Positions 2,307-40,255 of a DNA stretch of 41,427 bases are shown in pieces. Numbering within the stretch: the first letter of the stretch is position 1; every line of letters begins with the position of its first letter. The stretch lies in assembly GCA_030426395.1 (NCBI GenBank), contig JAUHYE010000018.1:1-41427 (forward strand). Direction: 5' to 3'. The notes under the pieces were generated by a model. That model had not been told where the DNA came from. It ran no database searches and saw nothing but the letters and a program-made list of their open reading frames with translations. This stretch comes from Phycisphaerae bacterium. GTDB lineage: Bacteria; Planctomycetota; Phycisphaerae; Phycisphaerales; UBA1924. The position numbers and the translations under genes are program-made.

Positions 2307-2312
2307 TATACT
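2307..2312 (+). promoter_or_regulatory. Leaderless-type -10 box before the gene at 2320
   Basis: TATACT lies exactly 7 bases before the ATG at 2320, with no Shine-Dalgarno-like sequence between. Transcription initiating about 7 bases after the hexamer would begin at the start codon. No convincing -35 hexamer is visible. Confidence 0.5.
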
Positions 2313-2319
2313 TGGGGTG

Positions 2320-2844
2320 ATGGGGCAAAACGGCCACAGCAACTTCGATCGCACGCCCAAAATCGGGCCCTGCTGCGTGCTGTGGACACCCGCCGGGCAG
2401 GAGCCGCCTCGCGAGTTGCTGGCGTCGCTCGAGCGACGCGGGCTGGCATGGGTGGCCGCCCAGGACGGGTACTCCGCCATGGCCGAGATCCTGCTCCGCC
2501 AGAAGGTCGGCAATGGGACCAAATCGGCCGTCCTCGTGCTGGTCCACCCCACAAAGCTCGACTTATCGGGCATGGTTGTCGACGCCCTGGGCCGCTTTGC
2601 CGGGCCCGTGGCGGTGTGGAGGTACGATCCTGAGGCCCACCCGGTGCTCGCGGCTGCCCAGCGGCACGAACTGGCGACCGTGTTCGTGCGAACAGAATCA
2701 ATAGAGCCAAGGCCCATCCGCACGCCCGAGCCAAAGCCCCAGGCGTCCCTTCCCAAAGAAGAAGAGGACGACGAGCCCACGGCGACCTCGTTGCTGAGCG
2801 ACGAGGAGTTGAGCATGCTGCTGGCCGAGAGGCCCGAGCGTTGA
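2320..2844 (+). CDS. Conserved-looking hypothetical protein
   Basis: I do not recognise this 174-residue protein. The N-terminal ~115 residues look like a compact alpha/beta fold, with alternating strands such as GPCCVLWTPAG, KSAVLVLVHP and GPVAVWRYD. An acidic, low-complexity tail rich in P, K and E follows (PKEEEDDEP), ending with a short helix DEELSMLLAE. The ATG at 2320 is chosen because a TATACT hexamer sits 7 bases upstream and the 18 extra codons back to the GTG at 2266 do not look coding. The GTG at 2266 overlaps the murG stop and is the alternative, coupled start. The stop overlaps a possible TTG start of the following diguanylate cyclase, so the two may be co-transcribed. The N-terminal part is vaguely receiver-like, but I see no phospho-acceptor signature and assign no function. 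Confidence 0.7.
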   Translation: MGQNGHSNFDRTPKIGPCCVLWTPAGQEPPRELLASLERRGLAWVAAQDGYSAMAEILLRQKVGNGTKSAVLVLVHPTKLDLSGMVVDALGRFAGPVAVWRYDPEAHPVLAAAQRHELATVFVRTESIEPRPIRTPEPKPQASLPKEEEDDEPTATSLLSDEELSMLLAERPER

Positions 2845-4184
2845 ATCGCCTCGGCGGGAGGATTCTGGAAGCGACCGTGGATACCAACGGCACATCAATG
2901 GCACGCCAGCATGCCGAGCCGAGCCCCGAGGGCCCGGCCCGGATCGTGCTTGTTGGTCGCACCGGCCTGGACGGGGTGCTGGCCGCGCCATCGACCACGG
3001 AGCTCGTCCGCGTGCGCAGCGGCATGGATGCGCTGGGCGAGGTGTCGTCCTGGAAGCGCGGCGGCGCGCACGCAGCCGACGAGCAGGTCGTCGTGCTTGG
3101 CGAGGCCATCGATGCCGACCCGTCGCTGCTCCGGGCCCGCCGGTTCGTCGAGGCGTTGCGCCGGTTCGATCCCGAGGTCCGTGTGCTGGCTGTCGGCCGA
3201 CCGCTCCACGACGAAGGCGAGGGCGCCGAAGCGTTCGACGGCTGGCTGGATATCGACGATCCTGTGTACTCCTCCCGCGTGCTGCTCCAGGGCCAGCGCA
3301 ACGCGCGCTCGATGCCGCGCGAGCGGAGCACGCCGGTCGAGGTTGTGGCTCCCGAGCTGCCGCCGGCTGCCGGCGATGATGGTGAGTTGGTTGCCCTGTT
3401 ACTCGACGACAAGAGTATCGTGCCCGCAGCGGTTGACCTCGCGTCGCGACGCCTGGGTGTGCCGCTGCGGCTCCAGGACGTCGCCGATGCCCCGGCAGGA
3501 CCCGGGCGTGCGCCGGTACCCGGGATCGACGGCAAGGTGCTCTTCGGCCCACGCGCCACGGGAGAGGCGCTCGAACAGGCGGCGGCGTGGCTGGCCGGCT
3601 GGATGCGGCTCGAAGCCCGCCACAAGACGCTCGCGATGCAGGCCAGCACCGACCCGCTGACCGGCGCGTGGAACCGCCGCTTCTTCGACGCGACGCTGGC
3701 CGAGGCCATCGAGCACGCGGGCGAGGCGCGGCGGGATCTCTCCGTGCTGGTCTTCGACATCGACGATTTCAAGCGGTACAACGACGAGCACGGGCACGAC
3801 GCCGGCGACGAGATCCTGTGCGAGGTCGTGCAACTGCTCCAGAGCGTCATCCGCCCCAGCGACAAGGTCTGCCGTATCGGCGGCGACGAGTTCGCGGTGA
3901 TCTTCGACGACCCCGCCGGCCCCCGCGAGCCGGCCAGCCGCCACCCGACCAGCGTCTTCGACATCGCCGAGCGTTTCCGGGCGCTGGTGCGCGAGGCTCG
4001 GTTCCGCAAGCTGGCCGACGACGCCCCCGGGCAGCTGACGATCTCGGGCGGGCTGGCGACCTTCCCCTGGGACGGCCTCGACGGCGCCGCGCTCGTTCGC
4101 GCCGCCGACCAGCGTGCGATCGAGAGCAAGCACCACGGCAAGAACGCGATCGAGCTCGGGCCCACGGGCGATCGCCGCGGCTGA
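2841..4184 (+). CDS. Diguanylate cyclase (GGDEF domain) with divergent N-terminal region
   Basis: The C-terminal ~170 residues form a GGDEF domain, which makes cyclic-di-GMP from two GTP. Visible signatures are TDPLTGAWNRRFFD at the domain start, VLVFDIDDFKRYND with the metal-binding Asp, and IGGDEFAVIF for the active site (about residue 346). The allosteric inhibitory RxxD site is intact as RPSD, exactly five residues before GGDEF, so product inhibition is expected. Residues 30-250 resemble two receiver-like or PAS-like alpha/beta modules, but no phosphorylatable Asp can be pinned down. There is no membrane segment. The start is uncertain: TTG 2841 overlaps the upstream stop, GTG 2877 has a weak GGAAG 5 bases upstream, and ATG 2898 is also possible. 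The stop abuts the stop of an opposing GGDEF gene. Confidence 0.88.
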   Translation: MNRLGGRILEATVDTNGTSMARQHAEPSPEGPARIVLVGRTGLDGVLAAPSTTELVRVRSGMDALGEVSSWKRGGAHAADEQVVVLGEAIDADPSLLRARRFVEALRRFDPEVRVLAVGRPLHDEGEGAEAFDGWLDIDDPVYSSRVLLQGQRNARSMPRERSTPVEVVAPELPPAAGDDGELVALLLDDKSIVPAAVDLASRRLGVPLRLQDVADAPAGPGRAPVPGIDGKVLFGPRATGEALEQAAAWLAGWMRLEARHKTLAMQASTDPLTGAWNRRFFDATLAEAIEHAGEARRDLSVLVFDIDDFKRYNDEHGHDAGDEILCEVVQLLQSVIRPSDKVCRIGGDEFAVIFDDPAGPREPASRHPTSVFDIAERFRALVREARFRKLADDAPGQLTISGGLATFPWDGLDGAALVRAADQRAIESKHHGKNAIELGPTGDRRG

Positions 4185-5171
4185 TCACGCCGCCTCGGAC
4201 GACGCCTTGCCGTCGCCGGGCTTGCGCCAGAATTCGTACCGACCCTTACCCGCACGCTTCGCGATATAGAGCGCTTCATCGGCGGCGCTGAGCAATTCCT
4301 CTGGAGAAGCTGCGCCGCTGTGCTCAATGGTGGCGATGCCCACGCTGAGGGACGGCATTGCCGGCACGCACCGACCGTCGAGCCAGGTTTGTGCGTGAGC
4401 GCCGAAGTTCTCGAGCAATCGATTCGCGATGGGCTCGGCGTCGCGCGGTTGGCGCATCGGCAACAGGATGATGAACTCATCGCCGCCGAGGCGTGCGGGC
4501 ACGTCGCCCTCGCGGCAAACTTCCTTGAACAGGTCGCCGGCGATCTTCAGGAGCTCGTCACCGGCCGCGTGACCCAGCGTGTCGTTCACGCCCTTGAAGC
4601 CGTCAAGGTCGATGGCCAGGCACATCAGGTCCACGCCGGCCTCGCGAGAGGCACGGAACATCTCCTCGAGCGCACTCATCATGGCGTAGCGGTTGGGAAG
4701 GCTTGTGAGCACATCCCTCGAAGCGAGTTCCGCGAGGCGTGCGGCGGCCTCGGCCAACTGGGCCATCCGCTTCTCAACGCACCGCTCCAGGTCTTCGTTC
4801 ACGCGGAGCAACTGCCGACGCTGCTCACACAGGCGGCCGGTCATGTCGTTGAATGCGATGGCGAGACACGAGAGCTCATCACCACCACGAACGGCCACGG
4901 GCGAGGGCTGCACATGCCGATACGCGACGCATGAGTCGGACAACACGGAGTCGGCCACTGCACCGGCGGCGGCCAACTTCGAGACCATCCGCCGGAGCGC
5001 CGCGCCCGCCGTTTCCGCGGGATGCACGCACTCCACGCTCACTTCGCACCGATCATCGATGCAACGCACGACACACGCCCGGTCGTCGGCCAGAGCACAC
5101 TCGATTCGGATGTAAGTCCGGACACCACCATGGCCATGTCGTCTGACTCTCCGGCGTCGCATCCCAGCCAC
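4185..5171 (-). CDS. Diguanylate cyclase with HAMP-like linker
   Basis: A HAMP-like second helix (DELSCLAIAFNDMTGRL) leads into a coiled linker and a full GGDEF domain: SRDVLTSLPNRYAMM, LAIDLDGFKGVND, and LGGDEFIILL near residue 228, ending with ADEALYIAKRAGKGR. The inhibitory RxxD motif is present as REGD, five residues before GGDEF. HAMP domains normally follow a membrane helix and an extracytoplasmic sensor. Neither exists here: the ~80 N-terminal residues are Cys-rich and unlike a sensor. The gene may therefore have lost its original N-terminus, or the true start may be further downstream. The ATG at 5171 is the longest choice and is uncertain. It is transcribed divergently from the EAL-HDOD remnant and converges with the other cyclase. 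Confidence 0.85.
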   Translation of the reverse strand: MAGMRRRRVRRHGHGGVRTYIRIECALADDRACVVRCIDDRCEVSVECVHPAETAGAALRRMVSKLAAAGAVADSVLSDSCVAYRHVQPSPVAVRGGDELSCLAIAFNDMTGRLCEQRRQLLRVNEDLERCVEKRMAQLAEAAARLAELASRDVLTSLPNRYAMMSALEEMFRASREAGVDLMCLAIDLDGFKGVNDTLGHAAGDELLKIAGDLFKEVCREGDVPARLGGDEFIILLPMRQPRDAEPIANRLLENFGAHAQTWLDGRCVPAMPSLSVGIATIEHSGAASPEELLSAADEALYIAKRAGKGRYEFWRKPGDGKASSEAA

Positions 5172-5311
5172 CTTGCCATCGGGCCACGTCCAGTCCAGGC
5201 CGTGTCATCGGTGGGGATCTTGATGGACTTGAGGCGACTCGATGTCGTGCCGATGTCAGCCTGCAATTCGCGACTGCGGTCTCCAGGAGCACCCCATTCG
5301 AGGGACACGCC

Positions 5312-6367
5312 ATGACAGCAGAGATGCACACTCCAGCGACCAACGAGCCGCAATGCGCAATCACACGCATTCCGGTCTTCAACAGACAACGCCAGCTCAT
5401 CGCGTACGAGATAGCCCCCTGGAACAGGGGATGGCGCAAGGGGAAGACACCCAATCAGACGTGTGCCGTGCCACGATCGGCAGCTCCTTGCACGCCATCG
5501 GGCTCGACGAGCTTCTGGGTGAGTGCCACGGGCTCATGCCATGCACGCTTGGGATGATCGATGCCGGCGAACATTGCGTGCTGTTGCCCGATCGCGTCAC
5601 ACTCTTGCAGCCATCGATCCCCAGAAGTGGGGATGCGACCAAGTCCTGCCAACGCGCGATCAACGATGGCTACACGCTCGCCGTCGAGGCAGGCTTCCAG
5701 GGCGCGGGGCTGGTTCTTCTGCCAGCCCGAGCCGCTTCGTGGCCGATCGCCCGGCACGCTCTTACCCACATGCATTCGCATGATCTCACTCGTCGCAGCA
5801 CAACAGTTTGATGTCGCTGCGATCGAGGCATCCATCAAGGGCGATGTGGGACTCACCCATGCGCTGCTCCAACAAGTCAATGCCTCCGCTCGAGGCGTTC
5901 TCTCTCGCGTGTCGTCGGCTCGAATGGCGATGAGCCTGCTCGGCGAGCGTCACGCACGAGCGTGGGCCACCATCGCAGCTATGAGGTCCGCCGCACCGCA
6001 TAAGCCCGAAGAACTCGTGCGTATTGCCTTGCTGCGCGGCCGGTTCTGCGAACTCGCTGGCGACCAGGTGAAGATCGACGTCAACGCTGGCTTCCTTGCT
6101 GGCTTGCTCTCGGTGCTCGACGCGCTGCTCGATCTGCCGATGGAACGCGCCATCGGCACGCTCCCCATCGAAGACGCCGTGCGGGATGCACTGCTCGCCT
6201 GGCACGACAGCAAGCTTGCTGCACTTCTGGAACTCGCCAAGGCCAGCGAACGCGGCGCATGGGCCAGCGCACAGCGTTTCGGTGAGAGCCTTGGCATCTC
6301 CCGCCGAAGCGCTTCGAACCTGTACTTCAAGGCGATGCGGAACTCGCCAAACGGCCAAGCCGCCTGA
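5312..6367 (+). pseudogene. Frameshifted EAL-HDOD (YuxH-type) signalling protein remnant
   Basis: Three successive frames together resemble an EAL-HDOD protein. The first frame, from the ATG at 5312 (GAGGG 7 bases upstream), gives TRIPVFNRQRQLIAYEIA, the classic start of a degenerate EAL domain. From about 5420 the signal moves to a second frame (ATIGSSLHAIGLDELLG, LLPDRVTLLQPS, NDGYTLAVEAGF). From about 5780 it moves to a third frame encoding an HDOD domain (MISLVAAQQFD, KGDVGLTHALLQQVNAS, and a long helical C-terminus to 6367). The middle of the EAL fold, including the K-I-D and E-K-V-E segments, is missing, so there appear to be two frameshifts and an internal loss. An independently expressed HDOD piece starting near 5781 cannot be excluded. 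Sequencing error is the alternative explanation. Confidence 0.7.
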
Positions 6368-6373
6368 CGGTGC

Positions 6374-7414
6374 TCAGGCGGTGCCGACGCCGACGCGCAA
6401 CAACCGCGTTTGCCCGAGGGGCGCCGCAGGATCGCAGACGAATGTCACACGATCCGCGCACGCGGCCGGCACGACGACGGTGTGTCCGGCGTGCACCGGC
6501 AGGCTCGCGGCGTCGTCGCCCTCCACCACCACCTCGCCCACGCCACTGACCAGCATGAGAATCTGGCAGCGGCCGTCGAAGCTGAGCGGGAGCTCATCGC
6601 CACCATGCGGCCGGGCCTCGTCGATCGAGAATGCGTCCAGAGCGCACAGCCGGCCCGCGTCGTCACTGCGGCCCAACCGGCTCGTCGCCGGCGGCGGACC
6701 CTCGAGGATGCACTGCACGGCCTGCTCCAGATGCAACTCGCGCCCGGACCGTCCATACTCGCGCGCCCAGTCATACACGCGGAACGTCGTGTCGCTGGGC
6801 GTCTGCACCTCTGCCACCAACGTGCCCGCGCCAAGCGCATGAATCGTGCCGGTCGGCAGCGTGTGCAGGTCACCAACAGCCGATGGCGCGCTGTGCAACA
6901 TGCCGGAAACATCGTCACCGTTGAGCGCCGCGGCCCGCACGCCCTCGGGCGTCACGCCCGGTGCGAGGCCCTTGAGAATCCGCGACCCCTCGTCGGCCTG
7001 CACAACGTACCAGCACTCGGTCTTCACATGCGCCTCGGCGTGCGCGGCGGCGTAGGCCGGGCTGGGATGCACCTGCACCGACAGATCCTCGCGAGCGTCG
7101 AGATACTTCACCAGCAGCGGGAATCGCCCATCGAGCGATGGCGTCGGGCCGAGCAAATCAGCCCCCCAAAGCGCAACAGCGTCTCGGATCGTCCTGCCTT
7201 CGAGTGCGCCGCGCGCGATGATCGACGACACCGCACCACCACCAGCGCCAGACGCGCTCGTTGAGTCGAGGTCGGCAAGCTCCCAGCTCTCACCGATGTC
7301 GCCAATGTCAGGCAAGTCCTTGCCCAGCGTGGCCAGACGCCGACCGCCCCACACTTTCTCGAAGAGCCTGGGCTCGAGGACGAATGGCAGCGGTTGTGGG
7401 CTTCGCGTCGGCAC
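6374..7414 (-). CDS. manA: Mannose-6-phosphate isomerase, class I
   Basis: This zinc enzyme interconverts mannose 6-phosphate and fructose 6-phosphate, feeding GDP-mannose and polysaccharide synthesis in the cytoplasm. The 346-residue protein starts with the family pattern FEKVWGGRRLATLG and GESWELAD. It carries the zinc ligands in LSVQVHPSPAYA and KTECWYV and the conserved GTIHALG that completes the cupin metal site. The C-terminal half is a second, less conserved cupin lobe. Length is normal for the short bacterial form. The start is a GTG 9 bases after the stop of the FabZ-like gene, with an AGG 5 bases ahead. It is the last gene of a three-gene minus-strand operon. Its 3' end nearly touches the EAL-HDOD remnant. 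Confidence 0.92.
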   Translation of the reverse strand: MPTRSPQPLPFVLEPRLFEKVWGGRRLATLGKDLPDIGDIGESWELADLDSTSASGAGGGAVSSIIARGALEGRTIRDAVALWGADLLGPTPSLDGRFPLLVKYLDAREDLSVQVHPSPAYAAAHAEAHVKTECWYVVQADEGSRILKGLAPGVTPEGVRAAALNGDDVSGMLHSAPSAVGDLHTLPTGTIHALGAGTLVAEVQTPSDTTFRVYDWAREYGRSGRELHLEQAVQCILEGPPPATSRLGRSDDAGRLCALDAFSIDEARPHGGDELPLSFDGRCQILMLVSGVGEVVVEGDDAASLPVHAGHTVVVPAACADRVTFVCDPAAPLGQTRLLRVGVGTA

Positions 7415-7423
7415 GTCGCCTGA

Positions 7424-8002: not shown

Positions 8003-8011
8003 CGGGTGCGA

Positions 8012-8185: not shown

Positions 8186-8347
8186 GGACGGGGTCTCCCA
8201 CATATTGCCGGGTGCATTTCGGCCCCACGGGCCGGCTGTGATACTTCCCACCCCCAACGGCCGGGGCAAGCGGAGGCACCGCCCCAAGATGCCGGGACGG
8301 GCCGATTCGGAGATTTCCGACCGAACAGCGTCCGGTCAGGCACCAGT

Positions 8348-10203: not shown

Positions 10204-10209
10204 TATGCT
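10204..10209 (+). promoter_or_regulatory. Leaderless-type -10 box before the DUF4340-like gene
   Basis: TATGCT is followed by exactly 6 bases and the ATG at 10216. There is no room for, and no sign of, a Shine-Dalgarno sequence. No -35 hexamer is recognisable. Confidence 0.5.
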
Positions 10210-10215
10210 GCGCCG

Positions 10216-11628
10216 ATGCCCAAGAAGCCGGTGATCATTGCGTTGTCGGCGGCCATCATCATCGTGGTCGCGTCGATCTGGCTCCTGCGACCACCATCGG
10301 CCACCGGGGCCGCCGGGCCCCAGCCGGTGCTCGACACCGACGCCGCATCGATCGTCGCCTTCGAGACCACCTACCGCGACGGCGGCACCACCCGCGTCGA
10401 GCGAACCTTGCTGGGTTGGCAGCTTGTCGGCGAGGACGGCCCGCCATGGGCGGTGCAGGATGTCCGGGCCCGCGTCGCGGCGCGCATCCTCGACGATCTG
10501 CAAGGCCGGCCGATCGAGGATCCCGGCGACCTGTCACCGGTCGCCACCACGCTGACCATCACCGACGCCCGCGGCCGGCAGATGTCGCTGGGTCTGCGTG
10601 AACCGGTGATCGGCGGCCGCCGCGTGGTCGACCGCGTCGATGCCGACGGCGCCGTGCAGCACTTCTCGATCGACGACCAGCTCTACGAGATGTTCGAACG
10701 GAAGGGTTTGTTGGCCTGGCGAGACGAGGGATTGCTCGGCGCGCTGCCAGGCCGGCCCGCACGGCTCGCGCTCTCGAGCGGCTCGACCCAGATCGATCTG
10801 GCCCGCGTCGAGGGCAACTGGTCGCTACGCGCTCCAGTCGCGGCCCGCGCCAGCGAGGAAGCCATCGACACCCTGCTCCGCGCCATCGCGGATCTGCGTG
10901 TCGAGCGATTCAACGAATCACCGCCTTCCCTGCTAGAAGATTCCGACCCCGTGTCGATCACCCTCGAGGCCGACACCACCCAGCCAGGCGAGGACCCCAG
11001 CCGGCCGCTGCGAATCACCGAACGCGTCATCCTCACCCTGCACGGCCCGGCGGACACCGGCGGCCGCCTGACGCGCGTCGGCGTGACGCGAGAGCGCGAG
11101 GAACGCCGGGCGGGCGCCGAAGTTGAGCCGCTCGGCACGACCTACGTCGCCATCGACCTCGAACCCCTGCAGCAGATCGCCCTGCGACCGCACAACTTCG
11201 TGGCCCGCACCGCGCTCGCGGGCGACGCCTCGCTCATCACCGGCATCAAGCTGGGCGAGCGCTCCTACACGCGCACCGCGGACGGCTGGTCCGAGGGCGA
11301 AACCGCGCTGCCGCAAGACCGCGCCGCCGCGCTCGACGCCCTCACCACGCAACTGACTTCGACCGCCTCGACCGGCATCAATCTCACGACAGCACCCGAG
11401 TTGCTCGGCAGGGCATCACGGCGGGTGCCGATCGAAGCAACAACCATCTCGGGCGACCCCTTAGGCTCCGCCGACGGGCTCACGCTCCTGACTGTCACCG
11501 GTGCCGGGGGCGACTCGGCCGCGCTGATCATCGGGGGCGGTGTCACACGCGAATACAAGGACCCCACGAGCATGGCGATCGCTCGTGCGGTCCTCGTGCT
11601 GAGTGAACCGATCGAATCCGGCGGCTAA
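10216..11628 (+). CDS. DUF4340-like membrane-anchored protein
   Basis: This 470-residue protein starts with a single membrane anchor (KKPVIIALSAAIIIVVASIWLL) followed by a large extracytoplasmic region of repeated beta-rich modules of about 100-150 residues. Examples are WQLVGEDGPPWAVQDVRARV, GNWSLRAPVAARASEEAIDT and DGWSEGETALPQDRAAALDA: each has a Trp followed by a helix that would count off a residue set. That W-x-L/P plus helix repetition is the hallmark of DUF4340 proteins, which often sit beside ABC-2 type transporters and gliding-type complexes. No transporter gene is adjacent here, so the role is open. The start is supported by the TATGCT hexamer 6 bases before it. The 3' end overlaps the stop of the convergent gene by 4 bases. 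Confidence 0.72.
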   Translation: MPKKPVIIALSAAIIIVVASIWLLRPPSATGAAGPQPVLDTDAASIVAFETTYRDGGTTRVERTLLGWQLVGEDGPPWAVQDVRARVAARILDDLQGRPIEDPGDLSPVATTLTITDARGRQMSLGLREPVIGGRRVVDRVDADGAVQHFSIDDQLYEMFERKGLLAWRDEGLLGALPGRPARLALSSGSTQIDLARVEGNWSLRAPVAARASEEAIDTLLRAIADLRVERFNESPPSLLEDSDPVSITLEADTTQPGEDPSRPLRITERVILTLHGPADTGGRLTRVGVTREREERRAGAEVEPLGTTYVAIDLEPLQQIALRPHNFVARTALAGDASLITGIKLGERSYTRTADGWSEGETALPQDRAAALDALTTQLTSTASTGINLTTAPELLGRASRRVPIEATTISGDPLGSADGLTLLTVTGAGGDSAALIIGGGVTREYKDPTSMAIARAVLVLSEPIESGG

Positions 11629-12879: not shown

Positions 12880-12885
12880 TACACT
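12880..12885 (+). promoter_or_regulatory. Leaderless-type -10 box before the metallo-hydrolase gene
   Basis: TACACT is separated by the six bases GGGCCC from the ATG at 12892. No Shine-Dalgarno sequence is present. Confidence 0.5.
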
Positions 12886-16024: not shown

Positions 16025-16030
16025 TAACAT
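16025..16030 (+). promoter_or_regulatory. Leaderless-type -10 box before the zinc-ribbon gene
   Basis: TAACAT is followed by six bases (GACCCC) and the ATG at 16037. No Shine-Dalgarno sequence is present. Confidence 0.45.
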
Positions 16031-16036: not shown

Positions 16037-16420
16037 ATGCGGCTCGACACCACCCCCCAAGCCGTCGCCAGCCGGGTTCGGCTGACCCGCTCCATCACGC
16101 TCTGGACGCTCCGGCTCGTGGGCCTCACGCTGCTCGTGCGCGGCGTGTATCTGGGCATCAACCGCGCCGTCTTCGCGATTTCCCTCAGCGATATCACCTT
16201 CGCGTACGAGATTTACACCGGTGCGGGCGAGGGCCACATCCTCTCAACCGCGGCCGCGGCATCTCTGGTGGGTCTGGCCCTCATCCTGCTCGCCCGCCCG
16301 CTCAGCCGCCTGGCCATCCCCATGCCCGACGCCGGCTGCCCGGCGTGCGGGCACACGGGGGAGGTGGATAGGCAGGGCAGGTGCGTGGAGTGCGGGTGGG
16401 AGTTGTGCCGTAAAGGGTGA
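16037..16420 (+). CDS. Small membrane protein with C-terminal zinc ribbon
   Basis: The 127-residue product has two membrane spans (about residues 22-44, SITLWTLRLVGLTLLVRGVY, and 75-95, LSTAAAASLVGLALILLARP). A treble-clef/zinc-ribbon tail follows, with CPACG, 13 residues, then CVECGW. Such CPxCG ribbons attached to short membrane domains recur in planctomycete genomes; the function is unknown. It is one of three in this window. The start is supported by TAACAT 6 bases upstream. The 195 bases between it and the divergent protease hold no other convincing feature. The gene converges on dxs with 6 bases between the stops. Confidence 0.72.
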   Translation: MRLDTTPQAVASRVRLTRSITLWTLRLVGLTLLVRGVYLGINRAVFAISLSDITFAYEIYTGAGEGHILSTAAAASLVGLALILLARPLSRLAIPMPDAGCPACGHTGEVDRQGRCVECGWELCRKG

Positions 16421-19459: not shown

Positions 19460-19469
19460 ACGGTACGAT
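19460..19469. promoter_or_regulatory. Overlapping divergent -10 boxes
   Basis: The ten bases ACGGTACGAT contain TACCGT on the minus strand (19465-19460, 7 bases before the ispA-like ATG) and TACGAT on the plus strand (19464-19469, 28 bases before the GTG of the ExbB-like gene). The two hexamers share the central TA, so the two promoters would be mutually exclusive. Confidence 0.4.
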
Positions 19470-20545: not shown

Positions 20546-20551
20546 AGGATA
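20546..20551 (-). promoter_or_regulatory. Leaderless-type -10 box before the EVE gene
   Basis: TATCCT on the minus strand is followed by six bases and the ATG at 20539. No Shine-Dalgarno sequence is present. It lies immediately after the terminator of the Cys-rich gene. Confidence 0.55.
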
Positions 20552-20554: not shown

Positions 20555-20589
20555 AGAAACAAACAACCGCGTACCAGGGCACGCGGTTG
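20555..20589 (-). terminator. Terminator of the Cys-rich gene
   Basis: On the minus strand, CAACCGCGT (20589-20581) pairs over 9 bp with ACGCGGTTG (20572-20564) around an 8-base loop, followed by TTTGTTT. It is 30 bases after the stop at 20619. Confidence 0.75.
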
Positions 20590-30746: not shown

Positions 30747-30752
30747 TAGGAT
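30747..30752 (+). promoter_or_regulatory. Leaderless-type -10 box before the OppF-like gene
   Basis: TAGGAT is followed by seven bases and the ATG at 30760, with no Shine-Dalgarno sequence. It lies ~190 bases downstream of the minisatellite. Confidence 0.45.
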
Positions 30753-33353: not shown

Positions 33354-33361
33354 GGGCAAGG

Positions 33362-34306
33362 CTAGCCGCGGCGCTTGGCGTGGAAGAGGAAGCGCTTCAG
33401 GTCGTCGCGGAGCAGACCGGCGGCGTTGGCTTGCCTGACCATGACGATGATCGCCAGGACGAGGAAGGTGAGATTGATCAGGCCAAGCAGGAAGCGAGCA
33501 ACCGAGCCCGCGCTGCCGCGTGGCGGATGGAAGTTGATGGCGCTCTGCACGCCCCGGATCGCCAGGCACGCCGCGATGATCGCCACGAGTACGCCGACTT
33601 GCCGGGCCTGTGCGGCCGCCCGCCGATTACCCGCGCTCAGCGCGATGCGCCGCAGGCGCATCGAGCCTGCCCAGTATTGCACGAGCAGCACGGCCATCAG
33701 ACCCAAACCGGCGAGCCGGACGGGCCCGATGAACTGCGAACCGACGAGCATGGCCACGAACGCCATCGCGAACACCACGGCCGACCATCGCGCCACGGCG
33801 TTGTGCCAGTCCGGTTCCTGATCGGCCAGCCGGGGGTCGGGCGTGGTCACCATCCACCATCCGGCGATCCAGAGCACGAAGCAGGCCATCACCGGGCCGG
33901 CGACGATGATGTCGGCCACCCATCGCGGCGGCATGGAAGAGGTGAGCATCGAGACCGCAATGTTCAACACGATGCTGCATATCGCGATGGCGATGAGCAG
34001 CCCCACGCCGAGCCGTGTGAAGGCCAGCCCCTTCTCCAGCATCGCCAGGTGCTTCGGGCTTGCGAAGGCAAGCCCGTCGCCGCGGAGCGACTCGGCGATG
34101 GGCGTGGCGCACTCGGGGCACGGGCCGTCGGCATCAAGGCCGGCGAGGTAGTATCCGCACGAGACGCAGTGGAAATCTGGCCGCCAGCCGCACTGGGGGC
34201 AAGATTTCGAAAACGGCACGTCCGACAAGTCATGCTCGCACTGCCCGCACGAACGGGGCGGAGCGATCTTGCGTGATCTAGGGAATGAGCGGTCCGCCGT
34301 CGTCAC
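33362..34306 (-). CDS. Multi-span membrane protein with two N-terminal zinc ribbons
   Basis: The 314-residue protein carries two four-Cys ribbons at its N-terminus: CGQCEHD...CPQCGW, then CVSCGYYLAGLDADGPCPEC. The second is the planctomycete-type CPxCGY-x-L-x-G pattern. About six membrane spans follow (for example LGVGLLIAIAICSIVLNIAV, GPVMACFVLWIAGWWMV and LINLTFLVLAIIVMV). No known function. It starts with GTG at 34306, and TATGCT lies exactly 6 bases upstream. The hydrolase lipoprotein follows by 8 bases and is probably co-transcribed. PheA is encoded 19 bases upstream on the same strand but this gene seems to have its own promoter. Confidence 0.78.
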   Translation of the reverse strand: MTTADRSFPRSRKIAPPRSCGQCEHDLSDVPFSKSCPQCGWRPDFHCVSCGYYLAGLDADGPCPECATPIAESLRGDGLAFASPKHLAMLEKGLAFTRLGVGLLIAIAICSIVLNIAVSMLTSSMPPRWVADIIVAGPVMACFVLWIAGWWMVTTPDPRLADQEPDWHNAVARWSAVVFAMAFVAMLVGSQFIGPVRLAGLGLMAVLLVQYWAGSMRLRRIALSAGNRRAAAQARQVGVLVAIIAACLAIRGVQSAINFHPPRGSAGSVARFLLGLINLTFLVLAIIVMVRQANAAGLLRDDLKRFLFHAKRRG

Positions 34307-34312: not shown

Positions 34313-34318
34313 AGCATA
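34313..34318 (-). promoter_or_regulatory. Leaderless-type -10 box before a GTG-start gene
   Basis: TATGCT on the minus strand is followed by six bases and the GTG at 34306. This is the clearest case with a GTG start. No Shine-Dalgarno sequence is present. Confidence 0.55.
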
Positions 34319-35444: not shown

Positions 35445-35450
35445 GCCCTG

Positions 35451-35456
35451 ATTATC
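35451..35456 (-). promoter_or_regulatory. Leaderless-type -10 box before pheA
   Basis: GATAAT on the minus strand is followed by CAGGGC (6 bases) and the ATG at 35444. It is close to TATAAT but lacks the first T. Confidence 0.45.
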
Positions 35457-35606
35457 GGGTGGTCAGGCCCCCGGCGTGAGGGCGATCGCGGATGATCCAG
35501 CGCTGACACTAAGCAACACCGGTGCCGCGAGAAACAGGGCCTCGGCTGGAAACCTGGCCGATGCTGGGACGAACACGATTTCGGGGCTAACCCTCAGGAG
35601 TCACGC

Positions 35607-36440
35607 ATGGAACTGGTCAGATCCGAAGCCGCGCTGCCGCACCCGCCGGGGAGTGTCATCTTTCGAGCCTCGCGACTGGCCCTGACGATCGCAGCGGTCA
35701 CGCTCACCGGCGCGGGCGTGGCGTACGGCTGGTTCGTCTTCGCTGGGGCTCCGTGGCCGTTCTGGGTCGGGTTCGCGTTGTACGTGCTGATCGTGATGCC
35801 GATCTATGTGGTCATGTGCTTCAGGAGCTTGAGCCGGCACAACTGGCTGCTTCGCGTCTCGCCGGAGGGGCTGGCCGTGCGTTTCCACTCGTGGGCACGG
35901 GGGCGCGCGGGCGGCGACGCATCAGAGGTCGTGTTGCTGAGTTGGGCGGAGATCGAGCATGTCCAACGCGTCGACGAAGTCATGCGTGAGCAAACCAGCG
36001 ACGGCACGCAGAAGTGGACGCGCAAGGCCCTTGAAGTGCATGTGGCGCCCGAGTTGAGCGACGAGATCGGGCTCGCGCTGCTCGAGAGTCTCCGCGGGAC
36101 GAGCGAACGATCCGGTCGCGTGCGCGGCGGCGTACGCCACCACCCCGTGCGATGGGTTGAGGACGGCGTGATCCGCTTAACGCTGAGGGGCAAGAACGAC
36201 TTCGTGCGACCGGGCCCCGCGGCAGCGGAGCGTGCGCTCGCCCAATACGTCCGCGTCGCTCCCGGCATCAAGATCGATCGCGGCTCGACCAAAGATCTCG
36301 ACGACGCCGGCTTCCGCGCGAAGCTCTACGACTTGGTCGACAGCGGCCAGACGATCCAAGCCGTGCGCCACGTGCGTGAGCGACGCGGGTGCTCGCTGGC
36401 GGAGGCCAAGGCCGAGGTCGACGCCGCCGCGGGCCGCTGA
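35607..36440 (+). CDS. Two-span membrane protein with L7/L12-like C-terminal helices
   Basis: The 277-residue protein has two membrane spans near the N-terminus (LTIAAVTLTGAGVAYGWFVF and FWVGFALYVLIVMPIYVVMC), then a cytoplasmic beta-rich domain (NWLLRVSPEGLAVRFHSWA, VLLSWAEIEHVQRVDEV) that looks PH-like (compare YdbS/DUF304-type membrane proteins). The C-terminal ~50 residues (KLYDLVDSGQTIQAVRHVRE, then RGCSLAEAKAEVDA) match the helix pattern of the ribosomal L7/L12 C-terminal domain (VKEATGLGLKEAKELV). AGGAG lies 6 bases before the ATG at 35607. Function unknown. Confidence 0.72.
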   Translation: MELVRSEAALPHPPGSVIFRASRLALTIAAVTLTGAGVAYGWFVFAGAPWPFWVGFALYVLIVMPIYVVMCFRSLSRHNWLLRVSPEGLAVRFHSWARGRAGGDASEVVLLSWAEIEHVQRVDEVMREQTSDGTQKWTRKALEVHVAPELSDEIGLALLESLRGTSERSGRVRGGVRHHPVRWVEDGVIRLTLRGKNDFVRPGPAAAERALAQYVRVAPGIKIDRGSTKDLDDAGFRAKLYDLVDSGQTIQAVRHVRERRGCSLAEAKAEVDAAAGR

Positions 36441-36459
36441 ACACATGTGGAGCCAAATG

Positions 36460-36486
36460 AAAAACGCCCGACCATGGGCCGGGCGT
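36460..36486 (-). terminator. Terminator of the rplM-rpsI operon
   Basis: On the minus strand, ACGCCCG (36486-36480) pairs with CGGGCGT (36470-36464) around a 9-base loop, followed by TTTTC from the A-run at 36460-36464. It lies ~25 bases after the rpsI stop. Confidence 0.8.
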
Positions 36487-36510
36487 GAGAGGTACCAGTA
36501 AAGCCGCGAA

Positions 36511-37083
36511 TCAGCGCTTCGAGAACTGGAAGCGGCGGCGGGCGCCGGGCTGGCCGGGCTTCTTGCGCTCGACCTTGCGGGCGTCGCGCGAGAGGAAGCC
36601 GGCGTCGCGGAGGGCGTCCTCGAGGCTCGGGTCGTAGTCGCGCAGGGCGCGGGCGATGCCGAGGCGGACAGCCTGGGCCTGGCCCATGTAGCCGCCGCCG
36701 CTGCAGCGGACGACCACGTCGAAGCGGCCCTTGGTGCCGGTGACGTCCAGCGGCGAGTACACGTCGGCGCGGTCGCGGTCCTCGGTGAAGTACTCGGTCA
36801 CGGCCTTGAGCTTCTTGCGGGTGCACTGGATCTGCACGTCGCCCTTGCCCTCGTCGGCGGCGGGCTTCATGCGGACGCGGGCCACGGCGCGCTTGCGGCG
36901 GCCGGTGCCCCACCACCAGCCGTGGCGATCGGGCGGCAGGGCCTCGCGGACCTTGCGAGTCATGGGGCCGCCCTCGGCGGTCCCTTCATCGGCGGCGACA
37001 GCTTGGGCCAGGGCGCTGCCGCCCAACAGGCTCGAGCCGCTGGTCTGGGTGGATTCGGTCGAAGGGGTGTTCGTGTCGGCCAT
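36511..37083 (-). CDS. rpsI: 30S ribosomal protein S9 (uS9), N-terminally extended
   Basis: S9 binds 16S rRNA in the head of the small subunit with its C-terminal tail near the P-site tRNA. The 190-residue protein has GTGRRKRAVARVRM at about residue 60, DVVVRCSGGGYMGQAQAVRL, ALRDYDPSLEDALRDAGFLS and the conserved end FQFSKR. Normal bacterial S9 is about 130 residues, so ~55 residues at the N-terminus are extra ([20 protein letters not shown] and further); these look unstructured. The ATG at 37083 overlaps the L13 stop by one base (TAATG). It is the second gene of the rplM-rpsI operon. Confidence 0.97.
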   Translation of the reverse strand: MADTNTPSTESTQTSGSSLLGGSALAQAVAADEGTAEGGPMTRKVREALPPDRHGWWWGTGRRKRAVARVRMKPAADEGKGDVQIQCTRKKLKAVTEYFTEDRDRADVYSPLDVTGTKGRFDVVVRCSGGGYMGQAQAVRLGIARALRDYDPSLEDALRDAGFLSRDARKVERKKPGQPGARRRFQFSKR

Positions 37084-37517
37084 TAGAGCTTCATCTCCAC
37101 CGGTTGCTGGGCCTGATGCGGGTGCTCACTGCCCGCGTACACCTTGAGCTTCTTGAGCATGACCCGGCCGAGCCGGTTCTTGGGCAGCATGCGACGGACG
37201 GCGTCCTCGATCAGCATCTCGGGCTTGCGCTCCCGCAGCGATCCGAAGGTCTCGACCTTCAGGCCGCCGGGGTAGCCCGTATAGCGCTGGCGGACGCTCT
37301 GGGTGTCCTTGCGGCCCGTGAGCTTGACGTTCTTCGCGTTGGTCACGACGACGTAGTCGCCCGTGTCCACGTGGGGGGTGTACTCGGGGCGATGCTTGCC
37401 CATGAGCACCTGGGCGATCTCGGTGGCCATCCGGCCGAGCACCTGGTCCGTGGCATCCACCACGTGCCAGTTCTGCTCGACCTCACCGGCCTTGGCCATG
37501 TAGGTTTGCCGACGCAT
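37083..37517 (-). CDS. rplM: 50S ribosomal protein L13 (uL13)
   Basis: The 144-residue protein has [52 protein letters not shown], then YTGYPGGLK and [20 protein letters not shown], all typical of L13. It binds 23S rRNA early in assembly. AGGAG lies upstream of the ATG at 37517; the longer open frame upstream is not L13. A sigma70-like promoter at 37689-37716 would give a ~165-base leader, long enough for autogenous control as known for L13 operons in other bacteria. rpsI follows immediately. Confidence 0.97.
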
Positions 37518-37784
37518 TGCAATCTCCTGCGGCCGACGACGAAAAAACGCATCGCCGGGGGCACTTCTCATACGCCGCCTACCGGGCGGGGCGGGCACGC
37601 CGGCTGGTGGGCCGGGGTGCAGGATTGACCATCTCGGTCCGCCGGGCGGGGCAAAGGCCACCAGCCGCCACCGTCCGGCGTGAGGGGAAGCGTAGACGCT
37701 CTCCACGCCCCGTCAAGCCCCAAACCCCTGGCCGGCCGCCCAGAGGGGTGGCCCGGGCCCCTCCCCTGGCCGATGATTGGGGCG
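37518..37784. other. Intergenic leader/promoter region of rplM and the CPBP gene
   Basis: 267 bases between two divergent genes. It contains the rplM promoter (37689-37716), the ~165-base rplM leader with a GCGTTTTTTCGTCG stretch near its 3' end, and, for the plus-strand gene, a GATGAT hexamer 7 bases before the ATG at 37785. No other gene is convincing. Confidence 0.5.
37689..37716 (-). promoter_or_regulatory. Sigma70-like promoter of rplM-rpsI
   Basis: On the minus strand, TTGACG (37711-37716) is followed by a 16-base spacer and TACGCT (37689-37694). Transcription would start near 37682. Confidence 0.6.
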
Positions 37785-39308
37785 ATGGACGAGCCTTACC
37801 AGACCTCCGGGGTGCTCCACCCGCCGACCGAGCCGCCGCCACCTGTGCCAGGCCCCAAGCCCGACCCTGGGTCTCGTGGATCGGCCGCCCTGGCTTGGCT
37901 GGTGCTGCTCGTGGTGCTGCCGCTGGTGGTCGTGATGCAGCAGATGCAGGCCCACGACGTGATCGAGGCCGATCCATCAACCATCTCGCCGCCTGCGGGC
38001 GACAGCGTCGAGGTGTCGGCTCGCATGGGCACGCGGATGGCGTACAACATGCCCTCCGCCGCGCCCAGCTTCCAGGCCCAGGTCGATCAGGCGGCCCAGA
38101 CGCCGCTCCAGCGATTCCGCGCTGCCATCGCAGCCGGTGAACTGGACAGCCCGGAAGAGGCTGCCGACCGGCTGGGCGACGTCATCTACGACCTCGAGAA
38201 CGACGACCGCAACGACTACGACCCCGACAACGAGGACGACCAAGCCCGCAAGACCCAATTGCTAGCCGACGCCGAGACGCTTCGGCCGTATTACCAGGAC
38301 ATTGCCCAGAGCGAGGACACCGTCGAGCCGCTCGACGAGACGACGTTGCAGGGCTTAGAGGACCGGCACGGCTTCTTCGCCGAGCTCGCGCGTATCGCGA
38401 GGCTGCCCAAGGGCAGTGCGGAGCGCAAGGAACTGCTCGACGGTGCGATGGTGCCGTTCGCGATCATGGGCTTGCTGATGGTCGTAATGGGTGTCGCGGT
38501 GCTGGTCGGCCTCGGGCTGGGCATCGCCGCCATCGTGGTCATAGCTGGCAAGCGTGTGCGGGTCACGATGGAGCGACCCGCCAAGGGCGGCAGCGTGTAC
38601 CTCGAGACGGCGGTGCTGTTCGTGGTATGCTTCGCGCTGTTGCAGGTCGCCCAGGTGATTGCGGCGATGATCAGCGAAGAGGCGGCGATGGTGGCGGGCA
38701 TGATCGCCCTGCCAACCCAGTGGCTGCTGCTTCTCGTGCCGTTGTGGCCGTTGGCTCGCGGTGTCTCGTGGGGGCAGATCCGCGACGATCTCGGGCTCCG
38801 GGCGCCCCAGGGCGTGATGACCGAGGTCTTTATGGGCGCAGTGGGATACCTGGCCCTGCTGCCAATCCTGCTTGCAGGAGTCGGCGTGATGCTCCTGCTA
38901 TTGATCCTCCAGGAAACGTTTTTCCCGGCCGACACCGAGGGGCTGGCCCCGGCGAACCCGATGCTGGAGATGGTCCGCGGCCTCGACCCCGTCCTGATGG
39001 TGTTGTTCTTCACACTGGCGACCATCTGGGCGCCGCTGTGCGAGGAGCTCATCTTCCGTGGCGCGTTCTTCCGCCACCTGCGGTCACGCCTGGCGCTGCC
39101 CCTCGCTGCGGTGTGCAGCGCCCTGGTCTTCGGCATGATGCACGGCTACGCCGGCGTGCAGCTCATTCCGGTCATCATCATCGGGTTCAACTTTGCGCTC
39201 ATCCGCGCGTGGCGGGGTTCGCTGTACGGCTGCATTGCGGCCCACGCGCTCAACAACGCGGTGGTGTTGTCGCTGCTTTTCGCGTTCGCCCACGTGCTGT
39301 ACGGCTGA
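37785..39308 (+). CDS. CPBP-family intramembrane metalloprotease (Rce1/AbiI-like)
   Basis: The 507-residue polytopic membrane protein has the CPBP motifs in order: CEELIFRGAFFRHLRSRLAL (EExxxR), VFGMMHGYAG (FxxxH) and AAHALNNAVV (HxxxN). These build the intramembrane glutamic/metal protease site. A long N-terminal part (one span at ~28-50 then ~180 acidic, Asp-rich residues) precedes the multi-span core and is absent from simple CPBP proteins. Such proteases process lipoproteins, prenylated proteins or bacteriocin immunity factors; no substrate is adjacent. The ATG at 37785 has only a weak GATGAT hexamer 7 bases before it. Confidence 0.88.
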   Translation: MDEPYQTSGVLHPPTEPPPPVPGPKPDPGSRGSAALAWLVLLVVLPLVVVMQQMQAHDVIEADPSTISPPAGDSVEVSARMGTRMAYNMPSAAPSFQAQVDQAAQTPLQRFRAAIAAGELDSPEEAADRLGDVIYDLENDDRNDYDPDNEDDQARKTQLLADAETLRPYYQDIAQSEDTVEPLDETTLQGLEDRHGFFAELARIARLPKGSAERKELLDGAMVPFAIMGLLMVVMGVAVLVGLGLGIAAIVVIAGKRVRVTMERPAKGGSVYLETAVLFVVCFALLQVAQVIAAMISEEAAMVAGMIALPTQWLLLLVPLWPLARGVSWGQIRDDLGLRAPQGVMTEVFMGAVGYLALLPILLAGVGVMLLLLILQETFFPADTEGLAPANPMLEMVRGLDPVLMVLFFTLATIWAPLCEELIFRGAFFRHLRSRLALPLAAVCSALVFGMMHGYAGVQLIPVIIIGFNFALIRAWRGSLYGCIAAHALNNAVVLSLLFAFAHVLYG

Positions 39309-39310
39309 CG

Positions 39311-40243
39311 CTAGACCAGCACATCAATCAGCCCGGTGATCCCCAGCAGCACGCTCACCATCCCGTTGAGCGTAAAGAACGCCATCGGGATGCCCGCGGC
39401 CCCGCGCCTGGTCAGCACCATGTGCTCGTACACCAGCAGCGCGACCGCCGCGGCGACACCGACGCCGAAGATGACGCCAAACATGGGCTCGACGATCAGC
39501 ACGCTCACGAGGCACGCGATGGCCCCAGCGTGCATGATGCGGCTGAGGGTGTTGGCCCGACGCCAGCCGAAGCGGGCGGGGATGCTGTTGAGCCCGGCCT
39601 GGCGATCGAAGTCGAGGTCTTGCAGGGCATAGATGGCGTCGAAGCCGGCGACCCACAGCAGCACCATGCCCGCCAGCAGCCAGAGCGCTGGATTCGAGAG
39701 CACGTCGATGCCGCCCACCGCGATCGCGGCCGCAAGCGGGCTGGCCGCTAATGCTCCGCCCAGAAAGATGTGGCACAGCCAGGTAAACCGCTTGGTGAAC
39801 GAGTAGAACGCGATCCACGCAAGCACGGGAGCACCGAGGATGGCCGGCCACCAGTTGCCAAAGAACACGCCGAAGAGTGCGCACACCGCCAGGAACAGTG
39901 CAGCGCACGCCGCGAGCGTGGCCAGACCAGCCTTGGTTGGCAGGGCTCCCGAGGCGAACACCCGGCCCTTCGTTCTCGGGTTGGCGGCGTCGATGTCGCG
40001 GTCGGCCAAGCGGTTGACCACCATGGCCCACGTGCGGGCCGCCACCATGCACACGAGCACGAGCGTCAGCAACCCCACCATGCGTGACCAGTTGACGCCA
40101 CCCGACTCGTGCCGCGGCGCAACCATGAACGCCCCGAGCACGGCGAACGGCAACGCGAACACCGAGTGGGCCAGCTTGATATCGCGGGCGATGAGCGTGA
40201 TCGTGCTCGGGCAGTGCGTGGCGGCGGGAACCTGGGTCGTCAT
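39311..40243 (-). CDS. UbiA-family prenyltransferase (UbiA/MqnP-like)
   Basis: The 310-residue integral-membrane protein has the UbiA start IARDIKLAHSVFALPFAVLG, the first Asp-rich motif NRLADRDIDAANPRTKGR (N-x3-D-x3-D), a second Asp-rich motif YALQDLDFDRQAGLNSIPAR, and about eight hydrophobic spans. It prenylates 4-hydroxybenzoate or a futalosine-pathway intermediate during quinone synthesis; the sequence alone does not separate UbiA from MqnP. The ATG at 40243 is supported by TACCTT 6 bases upstream. It converges with the CPBP gene (2 bases between the stops). Confidence 0.92.
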   Translation of the reverse strand: MTTQVPAATHCPSTITLIARDIKLAHSVFALPFAVLGAFMVAPRHESGGVNWSRMVGLLTLVLVCMVAARTWAMVVNRLADRDIDAANPRTKGRVFASGALPTKAGLATLAACAALFLAVCALFGVFFGNWWPAILGAPVLAWIAFYSFTKRFTWLCHIFLGGALAASPLAAAIAVGGIDVLSNPALWLLAGMVLLWVAGFDAIYALQDLDFDRQAGLNSIPARFGWRRANTLSRIMHAGAIACLVSVLIVEPMFGVIFGVGVAAAVALLVYEHMVLTRRGAAGIPMAFFTLNGMVSVLLGITGLIDVLV

Positions 40244-40249
40244 CGCCGA

Positions 40250-40255
40250 AAGGTA
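40250..40255 (-). promoter_or_regulatory. Leaderless-type -10 box before the UbiA-like gene
   Basis: TACCTT on the minus strand is followed by six bases and the ATG at 40243. No Shine-Dalgarno sequence is present. It is 14 bases after the terminator of the metalloprotease gene. Confidence 0.55.

Follow-up and report, generated by a model that had tools for sequence, protein, structure and literature searches.

Start-adjacent −10-like hexamers and predicted leaderless mRNAs in a Phycisphaeraceae genome

Introduction

Promoters that lie directly against the start codon, giving rise to leaderless transcripts, are known from Deinococcus and mycobacteria. For Mycobacterium tuberculosis, a start-site map is available (PMC3898074).

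In the available text of a study of −10-adjacent open reading frames in Deinococcus-Thermus (PMC12340547), a TANNNT hexamer is placed a few bases before the reading frame and is subject to a spacing requirement, as in the genome considered here, a Phycisphaeraceae MAG of 3.49 Mb (Planctomycetota, Phycisphaerales). That text puts the leaderless share of D. radiodurans genes at about one third, compared with an estimated share of about 18–25%, or roughly a fifth, of TA-led genes in the MAG. The role of the −10 element and of its spacing was tested by experiment in Deinococcus-Thermus, where adding a −35 element also raised expression, whereas the evidence for the MAG, from another phylum, is comparative. 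The TA-led genes of Actinobacteria (Zheng 2011, PMC3160421), which average about 19% in the portion of the paper available, resemble those of the MAG in their TAnnnT motif, the high GC content of their genomes and the presence of SD-led and TA-led genes together. The middle of the hexamer is described as uninformative for the groups in PMC3160421; in the Phycisphaeraceae MAG, these central positions are rich in C.

As reported in the available text of PMC9581028, GeneMarkS-2 predicts leaderless transcription in 21.6% of 4,769 bacterial species, accounting for up to 40% of transcripts. Planctomycetes are listed among the groups with intermediate Shine-Dalgarno (SD) use in PMC6728339, as far as its text was available. 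They are unnamed among the leaderless groups of PMC3160421, with the string "planctomyc" absent from its main text as distinct from its supplements, and "Planctomyc" is absent from the available text of PMC9581028. Planctomycete leaderless genes receive no mention in the available text of PMC6728339, PMC2784483, PMC9581028 and PMC10434106. Leaderless genes are already known elsewhere, and no description for the Phycisphaerales lineage was found in the available text of the literature searched. A first description is not claimed since the species predicted to be leaderless by GeneMarkS-2 may include planctomycetes.

Genome Sample and Counting

The window, which is the whole stretch of DNA that was analysed (41,427 nucleotides), was combined with 521 kb of the same genome to give a gene sample of 41 stretches totalling 563 kb, or 16% of the 3.49 Mb. 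Loci L001 and L002 were excluded from this sample. The counts leave out genes whose coding score was below 15 or 20, those running off the end of a contig and those close to the end of a stretch. The gene caller weighs coding score and start codon only. For pattern counts with a six-base spacer (N6), a twelve-base spacer (N12) served as the background, which keeps the codon phase; a reversed-pattern control was unsuitable because it scores AT instead of the rarer TA (216 vs 168 in G000). Congener orthologues with an alignment starting past residue 30 were left out of the conservation counts, and L141 and G002:C89, which are taken as one record, were counted once. Hard-assignment EM lost the TA class altogether, and a soft EM whose spacing prior was flat was used in its place.

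Hexamers in the Window

An earlier note on this DNA listed ten −10-like hexamers, each 6–7 bases before a start codon. All ten were found in place, nine of them TANNNT and one GATAAT. On the forward strand, TATACT (2307..2312) has a spacer of 7 to ATG 2320, and TANNNT is present at spacer 5–8 in 5/5 congener orthologues. TATGCT (10204..10209, spacer 6 to ATG 10216) is kept in 4/5 orthologues, while TACACT (12880..12885), with a spacer of 6 to ATG 12892 of a metallo-beta-lactamase-fold protein, and TAGGAT (30747..30752), with a spacer of 7 to ATG 30760 of an ABC transporter ATPase, are each kept in 5/5. The weakest of the nine TANNNT sites is TAACAT (16025..16030, spacer 6 to ATG 16037), for which strict TANNNT is found in 1/4 orthologues and TANNNC near the start in the remaining three.

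On the reverse strand, TACCGT (19460..19465) is located with a spacer of 7 to ATG 19452 of a polyprenyl synthetase and TATCCT (20546..20551) with a spacer of 6 to ATG 20539 of an EVE-domain protein. Both are kept in 5/5 orthologues and 7/7 genus genomes. Directly upstream of the putative 20539 promoter is a terminator-like element (20557..20588) made up of a hairpin at 20565–20588 and a T-rich tract at 20557–20564. A second terminator-like hairpin followed by a T-run (40273..40301, reverse strand) lies upstream of the putative promoter TACCTT (40250..40255, spacer 6 to ATG 40243), which precedes a UbiA prenyltransferase gene and is kept in 4/4 orthologues. TATGCT (34313..34318) has a spacer of 6 to GTG 34306, and both the hexamer and the GTG start are found in 3/3 qualifying orthologues; a fourth aligned from residue 43 only and was not counted, and one genome had no match. 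The exception to the TANNNT form, GATAAT (35451..35456), is six bases from ATG 35444 of PheA (chorismate mutase / prephenate dehydratase). GATAAT is near the start of the orthologues in G004, G003, G002 and L140 and is absent in G005. One further reverse-strand hexamer, TAGCCT (33359..33364, spacer 5 to ATG 33353), had not been on the earlier list and is kept in the sole qualifying orthologue (1/1).

Motif and Spacing across the Genome

A −10-like TANNNT is found before the start more often than in the background, at a sharply fixed distance of about 10 bp. At spacers 5, 6, 7 and 8, the 627 in-frame ATG candidates of the 41 stretches gave TANNNT counts of 10, 33, 9 and 8, respectively, compared with an average of 1.4 for the remaining 27 spacers in the range 0–30. 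The 479 ATGs in the two other frames presented no TANNNT spacing peak. When in-frame ATGs were subjected to a scan of three-letter gapped patterns without prior selection, TA...T at spacer 6 ranked first (ln P −57.8) and every Shine-Dalgarno fragment ranked below it. With both ATG and GTG candidates considered, 72/389 genes had TANNNT at spacer 5–8 versus 8, 16, 11, 14 and 16 at five control spacings. The rate of TA genes is similar outside and inside the window (74/409 vs 7/36).

It had been proposed in the earlier note that the hexamer be counted before starts across the genome and before internal ATG codons, and both comparisons came out in its favor. TANNNT exceeded control spacings in the 16% sample and in a whole-genome pattern count (216 for TANNNT-N6-ATG vs 68 for N12), while 5/2,615 internal in-frame ATGs had TANNNT at spacer 5–8, with control spacings giving 1 to 6.

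Soft EM seeded with TANNNT and AGGAGG converged on T.78 A.91 N N N T.87 in 109/445 genes, with weights of.23/.48/.13/.10 at spacings 5/6/7/8 that were unchanged at three coding weights. The SD class of this model (~303/445) takes in unclear genes and is not usable as a count of SD genes. In four dinucleotide shuffles, 110–215 genes were labelled TA but the motif and the spacing peak were gone. Since the shuffled TA class is equally large or larger, the evidence is the motif together with the spacing peak and not the class size.

Conservation in Congeners

Between congeners, the upstream DNA drifts and the start-adjacent hexamer is conserved. In five congeners, TANNNT is kept in 37/45 orthologues of the ten listed genes, compared with 0/112 for other window genes. 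At control spacers 11–14 and 17–20, the orthologues of the ten genes gave 1/45 and 0/45 while the other window genes gave 0/112 and 1/112. The start mode is not fixed for each gene, as two EVE orthologues from the MAG's family (L060 and L062) bear a GGAG-like site instead of the hexamer.

Gene Context and Shine-Dalgarno Sites

The anti-SD sequence CACCTCCTTT is intact in the MAG's own 16S fragment and in the loci of 8 relatives. SD-like sequence was found in 3/81 TA genes and 207/316 others, in keeping with the earlier observation that the listed genes lack a Shine-Dalgarno sequence; this scarcity is partly built in because the TA and SD classes compete in the model. Start codons presented no clear difference between the TA class (70 ATG, 10 GTG, 1 TTG) and the SD class (208, 40 and 4).

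Genes inside operons had been thought to use SD sites instead. This held in part: TANNNT was present in 1/38 overlapping genes compared with 39/148 divergent genes. As 17 of the 81 confident TA genes begin 40 bp or less behind a co-directional neighbor, the split between unit starts and operon interiors is a tendency that is sharp only for overlapping genes. A comparison of TA and SD genes was significant for divergent versus co-directional context (OR 2.2, P 0.006), and significance was lost on pooling divergent with far co-directional genes (OR 1.4, P 0.30).

Evidence for a Probable Promoter Role

Given its start-adjacent conservation in congeners and its position just before the 5' ends of non-coding RNA genes, the hexamer is most likely a transcription element. 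It may instead be supposed that the hexamer is a translation signal within the mRNA, either AT-rich and unstructured or bound by S1, and that transcripts begin further upstream. Such a signal would be expected near start codons in genes without SD-like sites, which is where the hexamer is found, and possible RPS1 sites have been seen in the AT-rich stretches that non-SD genes have in other phyla (PMC5397173, in the text available). The 17 TA genes that closely follow a co-directional gene would also suit a signal of this kind. However, the hexamer also stands in front of RNase P RNA, an untranslated product: TANNNT was found 4–12 bases before the model's 5' end in 26/29 loci and in 0/29 at 13–30 bases. 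The 29 loci include L133, which has an irregular flank and no match, and two with the hexamer at spacers 1 and 3. The RNase P spacer in the genus is 11–12 and not 6–7; this discrepancy may be real or may stem from where the model sets the 5' boundary.

Three further observations count against a translation signal. TA...T peaks at spacer 6, whereas the related AT-rich patterns AT..T, TA..A, T..AT and AA..T do not; for AT..T a single count stood out (89 at spacer 4, mean 57). The hexamer is almost never present in overlapping genes, for which a shared mRNA is expected. Lastly, terminator-like hairpins are present between the hexamer and the upstream gene. In co-directional genes with a gap of more than 40 bp, such hairpins end 18–32 bases before the start in 6/20 TA genes and 2/109 others (P 1.6e-4), and across all co-directional genes the counts are 6/37 and 3/189, respectively (P 7.7e-4). 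None were found upstream of the 39 divergent TA genes, as expected, or of the 17 close co-directional ones. With these considerations, a role confined to translation appears improbable.

The earlier note had also stated that no clear −35 accompanies the hexamer. In general this holds: TTGACA, TTGAC, TTGCC and TTGNNA at spacers 8–29 identified no general −35 among 80 TA genes, and in the 45 bases before the hexamer every column of the 80 aligned genes is at or below 0.15 bit. TTGACA with up to two mismatches produced a small bump at the canonical 17 bp (5/80 TA genes vs 0–3 at other spacings), and a few TA genes could carry such an element. At spacer 18, a TTGAC count of 4 reflects the same position as TTGACA at 17.

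A Divergent Pair Sharing One TA

At locus L009, two divergent starts are 22 bp apart and are separated by two −10-like hexamers that share a TA, following the pattern CATN6ANNNTANNNTN6ATG. With so short a distance, and with terminator-like hairpins abutting the hexamer elsewhere, little space is left for a leader. The same divergent gene pair with shared-TA hexamers is found in 5/7 genus genomes, the MAG included. Although the search fixed four letters, the ten-base core is identical in all five pairs, and the flanking six-mers vary.

Throughout the order, the shared-TA pattern has 188 matches in 108/251 genomes versus 96 in 65/251 for the N12 control, so that background accounts for about half of these matches; the reversed-pattern control gave 72 matches in 48 genomes. 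The MAG's own family has 37 matches in 29 genomes compared with 15 in 14 for N12. A single perfect palindrome, recurring in G394 and G412, makes up five of the matches listed. Among ten loci considered in other genomes of the order, L043, L044, L046, L049 and L051 are flanked on each side by an open frame of 140 aa or longer, while in the remaining five the frame on one side reaches at most 95 aa. The evidence drawn from shared-TA pairs is that of the conserved gene pair of the genus.

In the available text of a study on bidirectional promoters (Middlemiss 2023, PMC10268837), part of a symmetric −10 is common to both divergent starts, and the predicted −10 elements of the L009 pair likewise overlap. 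The usual spacing in that study is 18 bp with reciprocal pairing of −7 and −11, whereas the L009 pair has an implied spacing of 23 bp, shares the TA alone and does not take this commonest form. The wider definition, with starts 7–25 bp apart, would fit the L009 pair if both RNAs start at their codons. While the divergent RNA in PMC10268837 is often non-coding, the entire intergenic region of the L009 pair is bounded by two start codons.

Assignment of Start Codons

An alternative that is slightly less probable than a translation signal is that the starts have been misjudged, in which case the hexamer would serve as an ordinary −10 for an mRNA with a leader, translated from an internal start further downstream. 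The gene caller did place internal starts at 2377 (for 2320), 12919 (for 12892) and 34042 (for 34306), and also one start upstream, at 40276 for 40243. Against this, the spacing peak is confined to ATGs in the gene's own frame, 28/46 tblastn alignments with congeners start from residue 1 of the proposed frame, and GTG 34306 and its hexamer occur together in every qualifying orthologue. That TANNNT is near ATG at the rate expected by chance or composition, the motif being short and the examples hand-picked by eye from a high-GC genome, is opposed by the in-frame, spacing, shuffle, internal-ATG and orthologue controls and by a similar rate outside the window, and can be set aside.

Distribution in the Order and Phylum

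The hexamer signal was detected in 15/15 sampled Phycisphaerales genomes and is patchy by family elsewhere in the phylum. A z over 3 was obtained in all genomes drawn from families f30 (16/16), f64 (12/12) and f26 (7/7), and in none of those drawn from f32 (0/16), f50 (0/15) and f40 (0/12). These counts across the phylum are based on one control spacing, and in AT-rich genomes (f7–f9, f50) a missing excess is weak evidence of absence because the N12 background is high. The distribution suggests that a leaderless system may have been gained or lost several times within Planctomycetota.

Proposed Explanation and Significance

The motif, spacing, specificity, conservation and position before a non-coding RNA gene that were observed would be explained if TANNNT is the −10 of a widely used promoter type that is start-adjacent in roughly a fifth of genes and yields leaderless mRNA. 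This explanation is very probably correct. The housekeeping sigma factor would probably be the one to recognise the hexamer, usually with no discernible −35. In the genes concerned, it would be situated 5–8 bases (most often 6) before ATG or GTG, placing the start of transcription at the codon or within about 2 bases of it. Translation would have to be initiated at a 5'-terminal start codon with no Shine-Dalgarno contact. Many other genes, including overlapping operon genes, would use GGAG-type sites with the intact anti-SD. The earlier proposal of leaderless transcription is supported, at the level of sequence comparison, by the pattern counts, congener conservation, RNase P genes, hairpins and the 22-bp pair.

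There is perhaps an even chance that Phycisphaerales use leaderless initiation as a second standard gene-start system, switched on or off by family elsewhere in the phylum, with its limit in a 22-bp intergenic region where two −10 elements with a shared TA, each six bases from a start codon, would produce opposite leaderless mRNAs. The findings point to one more large lineage of high GC content, besides Deinococcota and Actinomycetota, where leaderless mRNA appears to be standard at gene starts. Gene callers that expect SD sites may misplace starts in genomes of the Phycisphaerales type, and TANNNT at spacer 5–8 offers an aid to re-annotation. The 22-bp divergent pairs provide compact test objects in which two polymerases and two ribosomes would meet at one start region. 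With sharp differences between families of one phylum, the causes and consequences of the leaderless signal become comparable and, if the explanation is true, Planctomycetota would serve as a natural experiment on the changes that a lineage needs for leaderless mRNA.

Motif and spacing upstream of start codons

The window corresponds to contig C23 of a draft genome of 3.49 Mb (186 contigs, 93% complete). Two named relatives, with PheA proteins 91% and 89% identical, are Phycisphaeraceae MAGs (lineage Planctomycetota; Phycisphaerae; Phycisphaerales). Besides the window, 40 other stretches of its genome were sampled (41 stretches in all; G+C 67.5%). Since genes were called throughout by coding potential and start-codon weight only, the upstream motif had no part in the choice of starts. 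At positions 1-135 of the window, the minus strand resembles by eye the C-terminal, DNA-binding portion of a response regulator of the OmpR type, and an FtsW/RodA-like frame on the plus strand apparently lacks its N-terminus; this segment may be a chimeric junction or a frayed contig end. In draft genome G002, two 16S rRNA matches with rather different scores (C97:412-1931 and C31:63917-65390) are possibly a sign of contamination.

All ten hexamers that the earlier note had placed before start codons were found. Nine of them are TANNNT; the tenth, upstream of the PheA gene, is GATAAT. Before in-frame ATG candidates, TANNNT occurred 10, 33, 9 and 8 times at spacers of 5, 6, 7 and 8 bases between hexamer and start codon, against a mean of 1.4 elsewhere, and out-of-frame ATGs in the 41 stretches had no such peak. 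When three-letter gapped patterns were ranked with none chosen beforehand, TA...T at spacer 6 came first, followed by GGAG fragments at the Shine-Dalgarno distance; related AT-rich patterns had no peak at spacer 6. A soft EM analysis with three classes and a flat starting spacing retained these two signals, a GGAG class and a TA class of 109 of the 445 genes, 81 of them confident (posterior > 0.8). Shuffled upstream regions gave a TA-labelled class as large or larger (110-215 genes) with neither TA...T nor a spacing peak. A model-free count over the sampled genes, with internal ATG codons as a control as proposed in the earlier note, also showed enrichment: TANNNT preceded 72 of 389 genes, the control spacings gave 8-16, and of 2,615 internal ATGs only 5 had the motif. 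With similar rates outside (74/409 genes) and inside (7/36), the window is no special case.

The earlier note had assigned the hexamer to genes that begin transcription units and GGAGG-like sites to operon interiors. The tendency held by gene arrangement (TANNNT before 39 of 148 divergent genes and 1 of 38 overlapping genes), but the clean split was too strong, since 17 of the 81 confident TA genes follow a co-directional gene at a distance of no more than 40 bp, so that promoters inside operons, or neighbours that do not form an operon, are common. The anti-Shine-Dalgarno sequence is intact.

Conservation among relatives

The syntenic region was taken from five congeners, and orthologues were scored for TANNNT at spacer 5-8 upstream of an ATG or GTG that is in frame and close to the start in the alignment. 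For the ten genes, 37 of 45 qualifying orthologues carried the motif, a count to which four PheA orthologues could not contribute because their site is GATAAT; control spacers of 11-14 and 17-20 gave 1 and 0. Among 112 orthologues of other window genes, in which the window itself lacks the motif, none had it at spacer 5-8, and the two control ranges gave 0 and 1. The surrounding DNA drifts while the motif persists. Exceptions are the gene at 16037, where strict TANNNT is kept in one of four orthologues, the gene at 10216, where it is lost in G006, and the PheA gene, where GATAAT is absent in G005.

In all seven genus genomes, the EVE-domain gene has the hexamer at spacer 5-6, as TATCCT, TACCCT, TATGCT or TAGCGT. 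In its orthologues from more distant family members (L060 and L062), a GGAG-like site replaces TANNNT. Thus, the gene appears to have switched between a leaderless and a Shine-Dalgarno-led start within the family.

Evidence for a probable promoter element

RNase P RNA is made by transcription and never translated. It was located in 29 of 31 genomes, and TANNNT lies 4-12 bases before the 5' end given by the model in 26 of the 29. Two more have it closer than 4 bases, and no locus has it at 13-30 bases. The -10 hexamer stands at 12 bases in six of the seven genus genomes (L123, L126, L128, L129, L130 and L131), with a common GTACGAG between it and the modelled end, which may reflect an extended 5' end. 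It stands at 11 bases in L138 and at 6 or 7 bases in 14 of 22 loci outside the genus.

In 80 aligned TA genes no general -35 was visible. A TTGACA-like hexamer occurred at the canonical 17 bp in five of the 80 and at other spacings in 0-3.

Probably little room for a leader

Among genes behind a co-directional gene at a gap > 40 bp, 6 of 20 TA genes versus 2 of 109 others have a terminator-like hairpin whose T-run stops 18-32 bases short of the start codon, so that terminator and next promoter stand back to back. Within the window, both examples are on the minus strand, at 20557-20588 before the EVE gene (20539) and at 40273-40301 before the UbiA prenyltransferase gene (40243). Outside it, such hairpins precede putative leaderless starts in L029 (two), L035 and L020.

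At L009:7746-7773 (contig C7 of the same genome), a divergent gene pair, named from the translations as an SDR-type oxidoreductase and a substrate-binding-like protein, has start codons separated by 22 bp, and the hexamers of the two genes have one TA in common. The pair is present in five of seven genus genomes, this one included (other loci L106, L107, L109 and L110), with an identical ten-base core, AGCGTAGACT, and freely varying flanking six-mers; a spaced control of the pattern occurred in none of the seven. If each RNA begins six bases past its own hexamer, both would start on their start codons. In the whole order, the shared-TA pattern gave 188 matches versus 96 for its control, an excess of only about twofold. 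The core AATCATAGACTC was seen in at least seven genomes of genus g286 (G494, G469, G378, G396, G505, G490 and G414), and GCAGCGTACACTC in at least four of genus g317 (G429, G492, G439 and G526). A perfect 28-bp palindrome repeated close to contig ends in G394 (one end, four contigs) and G412 (C38:13742-13769) may belong to a mobile or repeated element.

Distribution in the phylum

TANNNT-N6-ATG was counted against an N12 control of the same codon phase. Every one of the 31 genomes in the near draw (this one and 30 relatives) had an excess. Among 294 genomes drawn across the phylum, z > 3 was reached by 15 of 15 genomes of the order (own included), 0 of 7 from the other orders within the class, and 121 of the remaining 272. 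Some families carry the signal uniformly (f30, 16/16; f64, 12/12), others are mixed (for example f17, 12/20), and others uniformly lack it (f32, 0/16; f40, 0/12). Zeros in AT-rich genomes are weak owing to their high background.

Relation to known systems

According to the available part of one study, Actinobacteria and Deinococcus-Thermus are established as having leaderless TA-led genes; such genes are also predicted for several further groups, among which that part does not name Planctomycetes (PMC3160421). The accessible text of another describes experimental tests of the role and spacing of the TANNNT -10 in D. radiodurans (PMC12340547). Of 4,769 bacterial species, 21.6% are reportedly predicted by GeneMarkS-2 to use leaderless transcription (PMC9581028, in part), and the available portion of a 2024 survey gives the anti-Shine-Dalgarno sequence for Phycisphaerae and does not mention a leaderless class for them (PMC10783764). 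The open-licence literature yielded nothing further on start-site mapping or leaderless genes in planctomycetes or Phycisphaerae.

The TANNNT motif before start codons is real and conserved in Phycisphaerales. The best reading is that it marks -10 promoters, mostly without a -35, from which leaderless transcription starts; we infer both where the RNA 5' end lies relative to the promoter and how leaderless RNA would be translated. On this reading, Phycisphaerales would add a new lineage to a known type of gene, and the unusually compact divergent form is the newest aspect.
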